DNA of 64,000 bases from Mariniblastus sp. (lineage in GTDB: Bacteria; Planctomycetota; Planctomycetia; Pirellulales; Pirellulaceae). Below the pieces are notes generated by a model, which was not told where the DNA came from, ran no database searches, and worked only from the letters and a program-made list of their open reading frames with translations. A program made the translations under genes and the position numbers. Each line of letters starts with the position of its first letter. Within the stretch, counting starts at the first letter, position 1. Where the stretch lies: contig JAQXDZ010000032.1 in assembly GCA_029251085.1 (NCBI GenBank), positions 62,001-126,000 of the forward strand. The letters are read 5' to 3'. Below, one piece after another: positions 4,930 to 63,596 of the stretch.

Positions 4930-7158
4930 TTAGAGAACTCTCTGGCTTGCCGGAAAACTGCCGAGGACGGTTAAATTTTTACAGTGGGCACGAGCCTCAC
5001 CGATGATTTGAGCAATCGCTGAATTAGTGCGGTGCCCCTCGATGTCAATAAAAAATGTGTAATCCCAGTTTTCTTCTCGACTGGGGCGTTTTTCCAGATG
5101 GGTGAGATTGATTGAGTTTCGTTTGAAAACTTCAAGCACATCCATCAAAGCTCCCGATCGATCAGTGGTAGTAAACATGATGGAAGTTTTATCGTTACCG
5201 GAGATTAGAGTTTTGCTCTTCGATAAAATCAAAAATCGAGTCATGTTACTTTGTCGATCTTCGATGGCTTCAAAAAGTGGCCGAAGGCCGTAAATCTCGC
5301 CGGCCAAGGAAGAACCAATCGCTGCGACTCCGCAGTCAGGATCGTTATCTATTTCAGCTTTTGCTTTCATGGTTGCCAACGCAGTACTCTCGGTTGGTAC
5401 ACGCATGGCCTGTGGATATTGAGTGCTCAGCCAATTTCGACATTGCTCAAAAACACCTGGTTTCGAGTAAATTTTCTTTACTTGTTCTGGTTTGCAATTG
5501 GCAAGAAGACAGAACCGAATTTGAAATTTCACTTCACCATAAATATTTAATTGATCGTGAAGGTCGATGAATGAGTCGAGTGTTTCATTGATGCCTCCCA
5601 CGGAACTGTTCTCGACAGGAACGAGTCCGTAATCGATCTCTCCGTTTACTACTTGTTGAAAGACGGTGCGAATCTCACGTGCGGGAATAAAATTCACGCT
5701 CGATCCAAAATGCCGCACAGCAGCTAGGTGTGAAAATTCTCCTTCGGGTCCTAAGAAACCGATGCTTAGAGGTTTCTCAATTGCAAAACTGCCGCTCATC
5801 AATTCGCGATAGATAGATTCAAATGTTTTGTCGGTTAACGGACCGCTGTTCAGAGACTTAATCTTGTTGAGGACAGCGTGTTCGCGGTGAGGTGCATAAA
5901 TTGGAACATCAGATTTTCTTTTGAAATCGCCGACTTTCACAACCAAATTAGCCCGTTCGTTTACCAGGTCGACGACACGTTGATCCATCGTCTCAATCGC
6001 GGGTTCCAATTCTTTCAGTGAAGAATACTGGTTGGAAATTATCTCATTTTGATAGCGGTAATTTTCGTCATAAATTGGAAAGCTTCCGAGGACATGGAGG
6101 CTTTTACAGTAAGCTCGGACCTCACCGAGAATTTCAGCAATTTTTTCATCGTTGGCATGTCCAAGAATATCAACGAAAAAAGTGTAGTCACTTCCAACTT
6201 CGCGACCGGGTCGTTTTTCAATATGACTTAGATTGATGTTGTATCGTTTGAAAACTGAGAGAATATCTACCAAGGAACCAGGCCGGTCGGAGCAAGTAAA
6301 CATCAATGATGCTTTGTCTTTACCGGTAATTTCAGTTTCGCGTTTTGATAAAATTAGAAATCGGGTAATGTTGTTATTGCAATCTTCGATGCCGTCATAC
6401 AGCGTGTTTAACTCATAGAGTTCCCCGGCTTTGCTCGATCCGACAGCCACGACTCCATCCGATGGATTGGCAAGGTAGGCGATTTCAGCCGCACTGGCGG
6501 TACTCTGAGCGGGGATTTGCTGGGCGTTCGGATATTTTTGAGACAGCCACTGTCGGCACTGCGCTAGCGCTTCCCCTTTTGAGTAAATAACTTTGACGTT
6601 GTCAGGGTCACATTTTCCTAAAAGAGAAAATTGAATCGCTAATCGAATTTCTCCGTAAATTGTCAATCGGCCGTGGTAATCAGAAAATGAATCGAGGGTT
6701 TCGATGATTGCACCGCCGGTGCTGTTTTCGATCGGAACAAGTCCATAATCGACATGGCCTCGAGCCACTTCTTCAAACACACCTTCGAGTGCTCTTAGGT
6801 TTTCATAATTGACTGTAGGTCCAAAAAATTTGGAGGCCGCAAGATGGCTGAACGTTCCCTGAGGTCCAAGGTAACCAACCCTTGTTGGCCGTCCTAAGAC
6901 AAAGGCGCCGTTGAGAATTTCTCGATAAGCCCCTTCGAGCGCCGAATTGGGGATCGGGCCTTGGTTTTTGGAAACTACATTTCGGACTGCTTGAACTTCA
7001 GAATGCTGATCAATTCCACGGGCACCAGTTTGAGCCCGATGGATTCGGGCTCGTTCAACCGCCAGTTTTGATCGATCGTTGATCGCCTGAACCAGTCGCT
7101 GATCAACTTCGTCGATAGCGGTTCGCAACTGTAGTAGTGTTTTATCGGTCGCAGACAT
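4930..7158 (-). CDS. pheA: Tandem-duplicated bifunctional P-protein: chorismate mutase-prephenate dehydratase-ACT, twice
   Basis: One uninterrupted 742-residue frame holds two full P-proteins; the usual length is about 360-390 residues. Order: AroQ chorismate mutase 1 (~1-90), prephenate dehydratase 1 (~93-270), ACT 1 (~283-360), mutase 2 (~378-463), dehydratase 2 (~465-645), ACT 2 (~658-735). P-proteins convert chorismate to prephenate and then phenylpyruvate in Phe synthesis; the ACT domain binds Phe for feedback. Both dehydratases keep ENS (144-146, 516-518) and TRF (265-267, 640-642). The GTFS pocket motif of copy 1 is GEFS in copy 2. Both ACT domains have a G-S/A-L motif and EKRP where ESRP is usual. 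Mutase residues are split between copies: copy 1 keeps Arg12 and Arg29 only; copy 2 keeps Arg402, Lys413, Arg425, Glu426, Ser457 and Glu461 but has Glu385 where Arg is expected (E. coli alignment by eye). The ATG at 7158 has only a weak ribosome binding site. Confidence 0.95.
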   Translation of the reverse strand: MSATDKTLLQLRTAIDEVDQRLVQAINDRSKLAVERARIHRAQTGARGIDQHSEVQAVRNVVSKNQGPIPNSALEGAYREILNGAFVLGRPTRVGYLGPQGTFSHLAASKFFGPTVNYENLRALEGVFEEVARGHVDYGLVPIENSTGGAIIETLDSFSDYHGRLTIYGEIRLAIQFSLLGKCDPDNVKVIYSKGEALAQCRQWLSQKYPNAQQIPAQSTASAAEIAYLANPSDGVVAVGSSKAGELYELNTLYDGIEDCNNNITRFLILSKRETEITGKDKASLMFTCSDRPGSLVDILSVFKRYNINLSHIEKRPGREVGSDYTFFVDILGHANDEKIAEILGEVRAYCKSLHVLGSFPIYDENYRYQNEIISNQYSSLKELEPAIETMDQRVVDLVNERANLVVKVGDFKRKSDVPIYAPHREHAVLNKIKSLNSGPLTDKTFESIYRELMSGSFAIEKPLSIGFLGPEGEFSHLAAVRHFGSSVNFIPAREIRTVFQQVVNGEIDYGLVPVENSSVGGINETLDSFIDLHDQLNIYGEVKFQIRFCLLANCKPEQVKKIYSKPGVFEQCRNWLSTQYPQAMRVPTESTALATMKAKAEIDNDPDCGVAAIGSSLAGEIYGLRPLFEAIEDRQSNMTRFLILSKSKTLISGNDKTSIMFTTTDRSGALMDVLEVFKRNSINLTHLEKRPSREENWDYTFFIDIEGHRTNSAIAQIIGEARAHCKNLTVLGSFPASQRVL

Positions 7159-61061: not shown

Positions 61062-63596
61062 TTATCGAGATCGGAAGATTTGGCTGGTCGCAACAGATTT
61101 CACAAGGTCTCGAAATCCATTTCCGGTTGTGTCGATCGATTGGGCGATTTGCTCAATCTCCTGATGATCCTGAAACGAAACGGCACGCCCCGTTCCAAAA
61201 ATTAGTAATTTTTCAACCAGCGTTTTAGCAAACTGTTTTTTCCTCGACATGAGAGACAATTTAAGTTCGAACTCATTGTTGAACGAATCGCCATCGGGAA
61301 AATTTCCGGTGCCATCAATCTGTTTTCCTTTTCCTCTAAGTCCCTTGGCGGGGTAATTCGATCGATAGCTTCCGATCGGATCGTAAAATTCCAACGCGAA
61401 CCCAAGGGGATCGATTTTGGAATGGCAGTCGGCACAGGCGGTGACGTGCCGATGTTTTAGTAATTGCTCGCGGATGGTGGTTGTGCCGCGAGTGTCAGGT
61501 TCGATTGGCTCAACATCTGGTGGAGGAGGGGAGGGGGGCGATCCTAATAGATTTTCTAAGATCCAAACGCCGCGTGTCACGGGTGAAGTTTCAACGCCGT
61601 TCGCAGTGACCGTTAAAACACTCGCTTGACCTAAGAGTCCGCCTCTGTGAAGCGATTCGGGAATCGATATTTTTTGAAAGCCTTCCCCGAATTCTCCCTC
61701 TAATCCATAGTGGGTCGCGAGGCTGTCGTTGACGAATGTGTGTTGGCTATTAAGCAACTCAAAAATTGAACTATTTTCCTTGAGTAAATCCTGCAGGAAG
61801 TGATAAGTCTCTTGTTTCATTGCCGATTCAAGTCGGTGCCGGTAGTAGGACTTAAATGTCTTACTATCGGGAGGCATTGATCCAAGTTCGTTTAATCGGA
61901 GCCAACTGTCGGCAAAGTTTTCTATAAATACGGAAGACTTTGGATCTTGCAGCATTCGTTCGACTTGTTCGCGAATTACATTAGGTTCGTCGAGTCGATT
62001 CTCGCGGGCGATTCGGAACAACTCGTCATCGGGCATCGAATTCCAAATGAAATACGACAACCGAGATGCGAGTTCGAAGGATGACAGTGCGGTGTTTTGA
62101 TTTTCGTCACCTTCGTCGAGGTAAAGGAACCGTGGCGAGGTAAGGATGGCAGCAAGCCCAAGCCTGATAGCTTCATCTGCAGTCTGCCCATTAGTTATTT
62201 TTTGTTTGACAAACTGGATGTAGTGTTCGAATTCTTCGGGTTCCAATTTTCGTCGGAACGCTCGTTGAGCGAATCGTGAAATCGTGGATTCGAGATCCAG
62301 GTCTTCCGGTCGCATCGTCTTGCCATAAATTTTCTGATGACTTTCCGGCGGCCAGGATGTGTAATGCGGACCTTCAATTTCCATTGAAAAAATTCGAACT
62401 CGCGGGCCATCGTAAACTTCCGAAAGCAGGCGATTCTTGGTGTTTTTAGCACGCTCTTTCAATTGCCGTCCCGCTTCAACTCCGCCATTCTTTGCCATGT
62501 CTTCGGCGTATTGTTTCGGCCGCATGACTTCCGGGTGATACTTCTCTCCGACCTTGCGGATTGTTCCCTTTGAACTAAAGCCATTCACCCAGTGAACAAA
62601 GGGGGTGCTTCCTTTCGTGAGCCACACTGTTGCTGAATAAACCCTGGCTTCCTCATCAACTAGATCAAAAACTTTAATCAAACGTCGACCTTCGGACGCG
62701 CCTTTGATCAGCAAATCAGGCGTTGGAGCAATCCACATCCCAAGCTTCATCGGTTGTCGAAAATCGTATTCAAAATCTTTGTCAGCGTAAGGATGATCGA
62801 GACGGTTAATGGCAGAGGCTTTAACGCGAATGTCGTAGTATCCGTCGTGAGGCACCCCCGTTTTGCTAAATGCCCGGGGATACGTTGCGTGCCGTTCGAC
62901 GGGTTGTCCGTGTCCAATGTCGAGGTGCTGATTGTCAACATTCAAGATCCACAGCACAGGAGCCCGGTCGTATTTGTCTTTGTGAGACATTTGCTCTGGC
63001 ATAAATTGAACAAGCTTGGAATCGGGTTTTTCGTAGCCAAAATAAGACGCTCGCTCCAATACGCCTTGAGCAGCTTTCATATATTTTTTGAGTTGGAAAT
63101 CTGAAAGAACCTGAGACCTGCCTACGTTGGCGAATCCGTCTGTTCTTGAATCGCTTGGAAAGTCAGCAGTTGGATCAAAGGCATTGGTGTTAAAATCAAG
63201 AAGATCGCGGATTGTATTTCGATACTCATCGCGTGTCATTCTTCGCAAAATGGTGGTGTTGTCAGTCGAATTTAAGTGCTGATTTTTAAGTTCTTTTTCA
63301 ATTGATGCCACAAACATTCGACGTTCGGCATCGGAAGGCTGAGGCGATTTTGAGGGAGGCATGTCGCCGCGGTTGATGGCGTTGATCGCTTCCTCTAAAA
63401 GCGATAAATCCTGCTCATTGAGTGAAGTCAAATCAATCGTGTCAAACTGTCGATCCCCTTTTTGGGCGGAACCGGCATGGCACTTAAAACAGAAGTCTTT
63501 AAAAAATGAGTCAGCCTTAAAAGATGATTCCTGCGCCCACGATCCACCGGACATAAGCATTATCAAAACTGTAGCCAAGAGGTATTGGTGTATCAT
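61062..63596 (-). CDS. Planctomycete cytochrome c DUF1587/DUF1592/DUF1588/DUF1585 protein
   Basis: 844 residues with a signal peptide (to about GSWAQE). It has a cytochrome c-type haem site FKDFCFKCHAGSAQKGDRQF, DUF1587 (ILRRMTRDEYRNTIRDLLDF), a middle region with a carbohydrate-like β-domain, DUF1595/1592 (SRFAQRAFRRKLEPEEF; FELASRLSYFIWNSMPDDEL), DUF1588 (GGLLGQASVLTVTANGVETS) with a Pro-rich SPPSPPPPDVEPIEPD, and DUF1585 (GTGRAVSFQDHQEIEQIAQS). The layout is standard for planctomycetes. The DUF1552 gene ends on its start codon: TAATG, so the pair is translationally coupled and probably acts together outside the cell. Confidence 0.95.
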   Translation of the reverse strand: MIHQYLLATVLIMLMSGGSWAQESSFKADSFFKDFCFKCHAGSAQKGDRQFDTIDLTSLNEQDLSLLEEAINAINRGDMPPSKSPQPSDAERRMFVASIEKELKNQHLNSTDNTTILRRMTRDEYRNTIRDLLDFNTNAFDPTADFPSDSRTDGFANVGRSQVLSDFQLKKYMKAAQGVLERASYFGYEKPDSKLVQFMPEQMSHKDKYDRAPVLWILNVDNQHLDIGHGQPVERHATYPRAFSKTGVPHDGYYDIRVKASAINRLDHPYADKDFEYDFRQPMKLGMWIAPTPDLLIKGASEGRRLIKVFDLVDEEARVYSATVWLTKGSTPFVHWVNGFSSKGTIRKVGEKYHPEVMRPKQYAEDMAKNGGVEAGRQLKERAKNTKNRLLSEVYDGPRVRIFSMEIEGPHYTSWPPESHQKIYGKTMRPEDLDLESTISRFAQRAFRRKLEPEEFEHYIQFVKQKITNGQTADEAIRLGLAAILTSPRFLYLDEGDENQNTALSSFELASRLSYFIWNSMPDDELFRIARENRLDEPNVIREQVERMLQDPKSSVFIENFADSWLRLNELGSMPPDSKTFKSYYRHRLESAMKQETYHFLQDLLKENSSIFELLNSQHTFVNDSLATHYGLEGEFGEGFQKISIPESLHRGGLLGQASVLTVTANGVETSPVTRGVWILENLLGSPPSPPPPDVEPIEPDTRGTTTIREQLLKHRHVTACADCHSKIDPLGFALEFYDPIGSYRSNYPAKGLRGKGKQIDGTGNFPDGDSFNNEFELKLSLMSRKKQFAKTLVEKLLIFGTGRAVSFQDHQEIEQIAQSIDTTGNGFRDLVKSVATSQIFRSR

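Follow-up and report, generated by a model that had tools for sequence, protein, structure and literature searches.

The window analyzed here, a stretch of 64,000 nucleotides from Mariniblastus sp. (positions 62,001 to 126,000 of contig JAQXDZ010000032.1), encodes a P-protein in which the complete unit of chorismate mutase (CM), prephenate dehydratase (PDT) and ACT domain occurs twice in one chain. Judged by its sequence and by those of its relatives, the enzyme is genuine and unusual, a tandem P-protein whose mutase site appears to be divided between the two copies. The domain families are known, and what seems to be new is the doubling of the whole unit together with complementary decay of the mutase site. 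We consider it quite probable that the fused halves act as the subunits of a former homodimer, with one composite mutase site per pair of an N and a C half (N:C pair). A P-protein gene (CM-PDT-ACT), whose product is normally a homodimer, would have been duplicated in tandem and fused, probably once and inside the genus. The fused copies would have taken the roles of the two subunits, and one of the two symmetric mutase sites would have been abandoned. The CM of the N half would contribute mainly the first helix with Arg11 (E. coli numbering; R12 in the window's protein), and the CM of the C half would contribute Arg28, Lys39, Arg51, Glu52, Ser84 and Glu88 (R402, K413, R425, E426, S457 and E461). 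Such a composite site would convert chorismate into prephenate, which would then go to the PDT domains (phenylpyruvate, Phe) and to a separate prephenate dehydrogenase (Tyr).

Layout and recurrence of the tandem gene

The gene is one uninterrupted frame on the minus strand, running from an ATG at 7158 to a stop at 4930 (742 codons plus the stop). Pfam models find two stretches each of CM_2, PDT and ACT in the chain, and the domain order of a P-protein is present twice. P-proteins normally consist of one unit of about 360-390 amino acids; with its 742 amino acids in two units, this protein is a variant rather than a plain member of the family. The N half (residues 1-364) and the C half (residues 365-742) are 49% identical over 358 aligned residues, which agrees with the preliminary description of a double P-protein in one chain. 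The same description held that the whole three-domain set is repeated. This is correct in that all the domains occur twice, but the first CM is strongly degenerate at its active site. It is also a weak match to the NCBIfam model TIGR01807, which gives 36.5 bits in the N half versus 70.6 bits in the C half. In the window's genome (G000), the matches to the PDT model PF00800 are confined to the tandem locus. The features of the gene, all on the minus strand, are as follows.

4930..7158, minus: tandem P-protein gene, CM-PDT-ACT-linker-CM-PDT-ACT, 742 amino acids (frame and Pfam; shared by 12 of the 28 genus genomes)
6067..7158, minus: N half, residues 1-364 (49% identity to the C half; one clade together with the N halves of the 11 further doubles, 100/100)
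6910..7128, minus: N-half CM, three AroQ-like helices predicted (PF01817, 38.7 bits; Arg11 equivalent kept, most other site residues lost)
7123..7125, minus: R12, counterpart of E. coli Arg11, present in all 12 N halves (alignment)
7039..7041, minus: H40, in place of the catalytic Lys39 of E. coli, which 11 of 12 N halves lack (alignment)
6892..6894, minus: G89, at the position of E. coli Gln88, where singles have Glu and all 12 N halves have lost it (alignment)
6337..6879, minus: N-half PDT, catalytic residues kept (PF00800, 186.2 bits)
6118..6309, minus: N-half ACT, residues 284-347 (Pfam)
6019..6066, minus: linker of 16 residues (365-380), predicted as neither helix nor strand
4933..6066, minus: C half, residues 365-742 (alignment and tree)
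5773..6000, minus: C-half CM, keeping the equivalents of Arg28, Lys39, Arg51, Glu52, Ser84 and Glu88 (PF01817, 68.9 bits)
6004..6006, minus: E385, equivalent to E. coli Arg11, the Arg being lost in 12 of 12 C halves (nine Glu; Gly, Asn, Gln) (alignment)
5920..5922, minus: K413, counterpart of E. coli Lys39, present in all 12 C halves (alignment)
5212..5763, minus: C-half PDT, catalytic residues kept in most doubles, Ser/Thr114 position Glu in 12 of 12 (PF00800, 186.6 bits)
4996..5187, minus: C-half ACT, about residues 658-721 (homology to the N half)

The tandem gene is not restricted to the window. Among 28 genomes surveyed from the genus (probably Mariniblastus, Pirellulaceae), 12 have a double P-protein, 14 have a single one and 2 have no PDT. 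The doubles are those of G000, G100, G119, G144, G350, G351, G355, G357, G358, G359, G360 and G366. Their frames measure 744-830 amino acids from stop to stop, with PDT and CM each matched twice. Identity to the window's halves ranges from 60 to 99.7% for the halves of the other 11, the linkers are similar among all 12, and accession prefixes suggest that the other 11 stem from several sequencing projects. A scan of genome_contigs, in which 79 loci were kept, returned 11 doubles, apparently the same records as the other 11 of the genus. A family sample of 149 genomes, with all matches listed, contained an in-frame pair in 4, every one in this genus. The protein had matches in 225 of the 392 genomes of a phylum sample, and among the matches listed only the window's spans both halves. 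An order sample of 246 genomes may contain further doubles beyond the matches listed; long frames occur there in G213, G241 and G344, and another was met in G575.

These results bear on whether the gene could be an assembly artefact or the product of a missed stop, the refuting case named in the preliminary description. The window's genome is a draft in 171 contigs, which would leave room for such an error. Still, the double frame is present in 12 genomes from several projects, and an assembly join at the junction is therefore excluded. With the same architecture in 12 of 28 genomes, similar linkers, and halves that fall into two clades supported at 100/100, we give an artefact practically no credence. 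The proposal that the fusion might be common to a planctomycete clade also held, with doubles in this genus and N and C halves each forming one clade. Two genomes of the genus, G361 and G362 (77% and 92% complete), had neither a PDT nor a CM match; they could be auxotrophs or have gaps.

Complementary losses in the mutase site

The CM site of E. coli is described in PMC5526877 as formed by Arg11 of one monomer together with Arg28, Lys39, Asp48, Arg51, Glu52 and Gln88 of its partner and with the hydrophobic residues Val35, Leu55, Ile81 and Val85, and the exchange Lys39Ala is given in PMC10520331 as lowering kcat/Km by 10^4-10^5. Our reference consisted of 25 single P-proteins, 14 from the genus and 11 hand-picked as the nearest in the family. 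All 25 are invariant at columns 11, 28, 35, 39, 51, 52, 55, 81, 84, 85 and 88, with Glu at 88; column 48 is Ala or Ser. The C halves of the 12 doubles have lost Arg11 without exception (Glu in nine, otherwise Gly, Asn or Gln) and keep 28, 39, 51, 52, 84 and 88 in every case. The N halves all keep Arg11, around which the alignment is free of gaps, and Arg28. They are changed at columns 35, 51, 55, 81 and 88 in all 12 doubles, at 39 in 11, at 84 in nine and at 52 in three. The replacements of Lys39 in N halves are varied (His, Tyr, Phe, Asp, Gly or Gln), a sign of repeated drift.

The same pattern is found when more columns are considered. Over ten pocket columns, the N halves deviate in 85 of 120 cells and the C halves in 2 of 120. 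Among 137 columns invariant in the singles (one exception allowed), 24 are lost in the N halves, 15 in the C halves and none in both, where a column is lost if changed in at least 9 of 12 halves; the chance of finding no column lost in both is 0.039. The N-terminal part of helix 1 (residues 5-27) is nearer to the genus singles in the N half, and the other three CM blocks are nearer in the C half, each in 12 of 12 doubles. As a control, 119 further single P-proteins were considered: residues 28, 39, 51, 52 and 88 are intact in 73, and Arg11 is missing in none of these. Thirteen of the 73 are sequences already among the 25 singles, and the genome_contigs part of the control (68 of 68 intact) was drawn by similarity to the doubles, one of the selection patterns, SDVPIYAP, sitting in the CM loop. 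Hence, only Arg11, a residue that none of the patterns contains, serves as the control.

A complete AroQ site results only when Arg11 of the N half is combined with the remaining residues of the C half, and neither from N alone nor from C alone; N:C is the only pairing that completes a mutase site. These complementary losses suggest that the chain is a covalent pseudo-heterodimer in which a single mutase site is composed from both halves. The idea that the chain could be its own covalent dimer had been put forward before, and its mutase part now has strong indirect support from the complementary site losses; that no more than one mutase site would be left had escaped the preliminary description. 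That the N-half and C-half CMs pair, preferably in cis, that a single mutase site is active and that each PDT is active is what we infer from the sequences. Alternatively, two full P-proteins, each with a mutase and a dehydratase of its own, could have been joined for the sake of dosage or stability. That both halves retain their PDT and ACT motifs would fit such a function, but neither CM is complete alone or as a homotypic pair, and we find this explanation very improbable.

Several observations weigh against a single composite site. The N halves keep Arg28 in 12 of 12 doubles and, aligned in a drifting loop, Glu52 in 9 of 12, and the N half of G357 retains Lys39. The 12 doubles are one clade, and the counts are not independent events. 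The losses of the N halves affect 7 of 10 pocket columns versus 6 of 19 other invariant columns, a difference that is not significant (p = 0.064). The CM of M. tuberculosis is presented in PMC7762937 as lacking the equivalents of the Lys and of Gln88 and working well when bound to its partner; hence, absent residues are no proof of a dead site.

Matches to PF01817 occur in 26 of the 28 genus genomes, all inside P-protein frames, and in the 12 doubles the tandem chain has the only PF01817 mutase and the only PF00800 dehydratase. The model of AroH-type mutases, PF07736, matched in 0 of these 28 genomes; the same model matched in 4 of 14 reference genomes. The window's genome, a draft that is 92.67% complete, encodes a chorismate synthase and, in a frame of 318 amino acids, a prephenate dehydrogenase. 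A missed mutase gene is possible in one genome and unlikely across all 12 doubles. As the only mutase found with the two models PF01817 and PF07736, to which the search was limited, the composite site would have to feed both the PDT domains, for Phe, and the prephenate dehydrogenase, for Tyr.

Both halves are under purifying selection. The ratio of nonsynonymous to synonymous substitution rates (dN/dS) was computed pairwise with NG86 for six close doubles (15 pairs), and dS of about 0.85-1.5 makes the values rough. For CM, PDT and ACT, respectively, dN/dS is 0.074, 0.021 and 0.017 in the N half, 0.031, 0.016 and 0.022 in the C half, and 0.060, 0.019 and 0.041 in five close singles, so that every domain of the doubles lies within 0.016-0.074. 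Low dN/dS in both halves bears out the earlier suggestion of a diverged duplication of which both copies are maintained. The N-half CM has the highest value of the six domains and lacks most of its site, as could be expected of a decaying relic, with the C-half CMs alone being active and tolerating the loss of Arg11. However, its dN/dS is near that of the singles' CM, and in all 12 doubles the N half preserves the N-terminal part of helix 1 better than the C half does. Moreover, Arg11 is kept in all N halves, lost in all C halves, and kept in the 25 singles and in the 73 controls with an intact site. We regard a relic as distinctly unlikely.

Dehydratase and ACT domains and the predicted structure

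We take Asn160, Ser208, Gln215 and Thr278-Arg-Phe (E. coli numbers) to be the catalytic residues of PDT. The set is complete in both halves of the window's protein, and each residue is kept in 12 of 12 N halves. The C halves also keep it in 12 of 12, except for Asn160 and Gln215, each kept in 11 (Ser in G358 and Ala in G144, respectively). For the ACT domain, we assume that GALV and ESRP are the motifs of Phe sensing. They are present in variant form: GSLV/EKRP and GALM/EKRP in the window, and GSLV, GSLA or GALV with E/DKRP in the genus singles. Since PDT catalytic residues and ACT motifs of the Phe-binding type are kept in both halves, each half probably continues to take part in dehydration and Phe feedback.

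Other PDT positions distinguish the halves. All 12 C halves have Glu (E474 in the window, 5737-5739) in place of Ser/Thr114 of the conserved G-S/T-Y/F-S loop, and this position is Ser, Thr or Asn in all 147 non-double rows (133 distinct). Position 163 is Val or Ile in the C halves. Position 232 is Gln in the N halves and Glu in 14 of 14 genus singles and 11 of 12 C halves; it is variable elsewhere. The losses at invariant PDT columns form a mosaic: those of the C halves lie before position 200 (10 of 10) and those of the N halves mostly after it (7 of 8), with p = 0.00025 for a cut at 200 that was chosen after looking. With a cut at 190, which approximates the lobe border of GqqA, a protein whose residues 86-170 are described in PMC8192741 as a separate subdomain, a permutation gives p = 0.0019. 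Both values flatter the mosaic, columns and sequences not being independent. The mosaic divergence may reflect specialization of the halves. One could speculate that the dehydratase is divided as well, the N half keeping the first PDT lobe (E. coli 103-189) and the C half the second (190-274). The chain would then be an obligate pseudo-heterodimer in which one composite mutase site is accompanied by a single dominant dehydratase site, the abandoned sites being free for regulation as in yeast CM. We find this extension rather doubtful.

An AlphaFold2 model built on a 37-row alignment has a predicted local distance difference test score (pLDDT) of 84.2 and a predicted template modeling score (pTM) of 0.67. 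Both CMs are predicted as long-short-short three-helix units (residues 4-44/51-63/71-89 and 381-416/423-436/443-461). By a rough calculation, a pTM of about 0.5 would be expected for two well-folded halves in an arbitrary mutual position, and the observed value mildly favors a defined arrangement of the halves. This concerns a variant nested within the composite-site explanation, from which it differs only in being trans instead of cis: the N-half CM of one chain could pair with the C-half CM of another, in a dimer or a polymer. The residue losses fit any N:C pairing, and the 16-residue linker does not decide between cis and trans. Against pairing between chains, the pTM weakly hints at a defined arrangement within one chain, and covalent linkage would itself favor cis. 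Pairing in trans seems to us possible, if somewhat unlikely. A structure search gave 1344 matches, of which the best 50 were considered. The first 16 are chains of the prephenate dehydratase fold, each aligned to one half. Among the rest of these 50, HisG, periplasmic binding proteins and transferrins, at low template modeling scores (TM-scores), predominate over a few ACT or chorismate mutase entries; none of the 50 is a two-half P-protein.

Origin of the halves and comparison with known systems

The tree of halves and singles (49 sequences) places all N halves in one clade and all C halves in another, with support of 100/100 each. Nine of the 14 genus singles join these two clades (97/95), and the remaining 5 lie just outside. 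As sister clades, N and C have a branch support of 51/0 and p = 0.407 in the approximately unbiased (AU) test, values that favor no particular immediate parent of the halves. The halves of G144 are on long branches. Within the fetched stretch, 10 of the 11 other doubles share the window's neighbors (MBL-fold, glycosyltransferase, ammonium transporter, Nudix and DUF255-type genes, putative names read from sequence); G144 and all 14 genus singles do not. A RecA tree, built without G350 and G359 (full RecA not recovered), has 9 of 10 sampled doubles in one clade (99/96), with G144 unplaced next to it. A single origin of the fusion is likely because of this RecA clade with G144 nearby, although the species tree gives no proof.

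Each half has the same domains in the same order, and the same PDT and ACT motifs, as PheA of E. coli and the single P-proteins of the genus (AroQ-alpha), the latter being the nearest sequences to the halves. Unlike these, the tandem protein has the whole unit doubled in one chain and its mutase residues split, apparently leaving one composite site. A possible analogy is the yeast CM (AroQ-beta), whose monomer resembles a dimer of the E. coli CM in which, after an ancestral duplication, one site was retained and the second became regulatory. The residue pattern of the tandem chain similarly fits two fused protomers with one site per chain. However, the CMs of the tandem chain are separated by PDT-ACT, and its halves arose within the genus, are still half identical and have unduplicated relatives there. 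The yeast CM is monofunctional and very divergent, whereas the tandem unit includes PDT and ACT. Duplicated and fused subunits that specialize are also known from an unrelated enzyme, the fused archaeal tRNA-splicing endonucleases. Obligate homodimers are thought to become single-chain enzymes through duplication, fusion and loss of one site, yeast CM being an ancient example. Here, a central metabolic enzyme seems to be caught midway from a two-subunit to a single-chain form. Its genus still includes unduplicated relatives, and there are graded states such as the Lys39 retained in the N half of G357. We found no description of a tandem P-protein with complementary decay in a search of open-access papers, a body of literature without most subscription journals.

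Other long P-proteins have a different architecture. Three genomes of other genera have P-proteins of 720-766 amino acids (L078, L079 and L080). In L079 and L080 (720 and 766 amino acids, Pirellulaceae), one CM and one PDT are fused to a DAHP synthase (PF00793), and L078 looks similar to them. Unlike the tandem gene, L079 and L080 carry a single CM and PDT, with an ACT match in L079 only, below the cut-off; their genomes have a second PDT gene besides the fusion. Long frames in G064, G041 and G099 (726-773 amino acids) were rejected as doubles, with one PDT match each and, in the last two, a fusion to DAHP synthase. L213, L207, L244 and L235 were rejected too, each having one P-protein motif set behind an apparent non-coding read-through. 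Among the single P-proteins L003-L053 of the family and order samples, 46 of 51 have a CM without the full catalytic set, in a sample biased toward top PDT scorers. At G147:C1:1018950-1019475, in another member of the family, a PDT is split over two frames (256 and 138 amino acids), perhaps a frameshift or a split gene.
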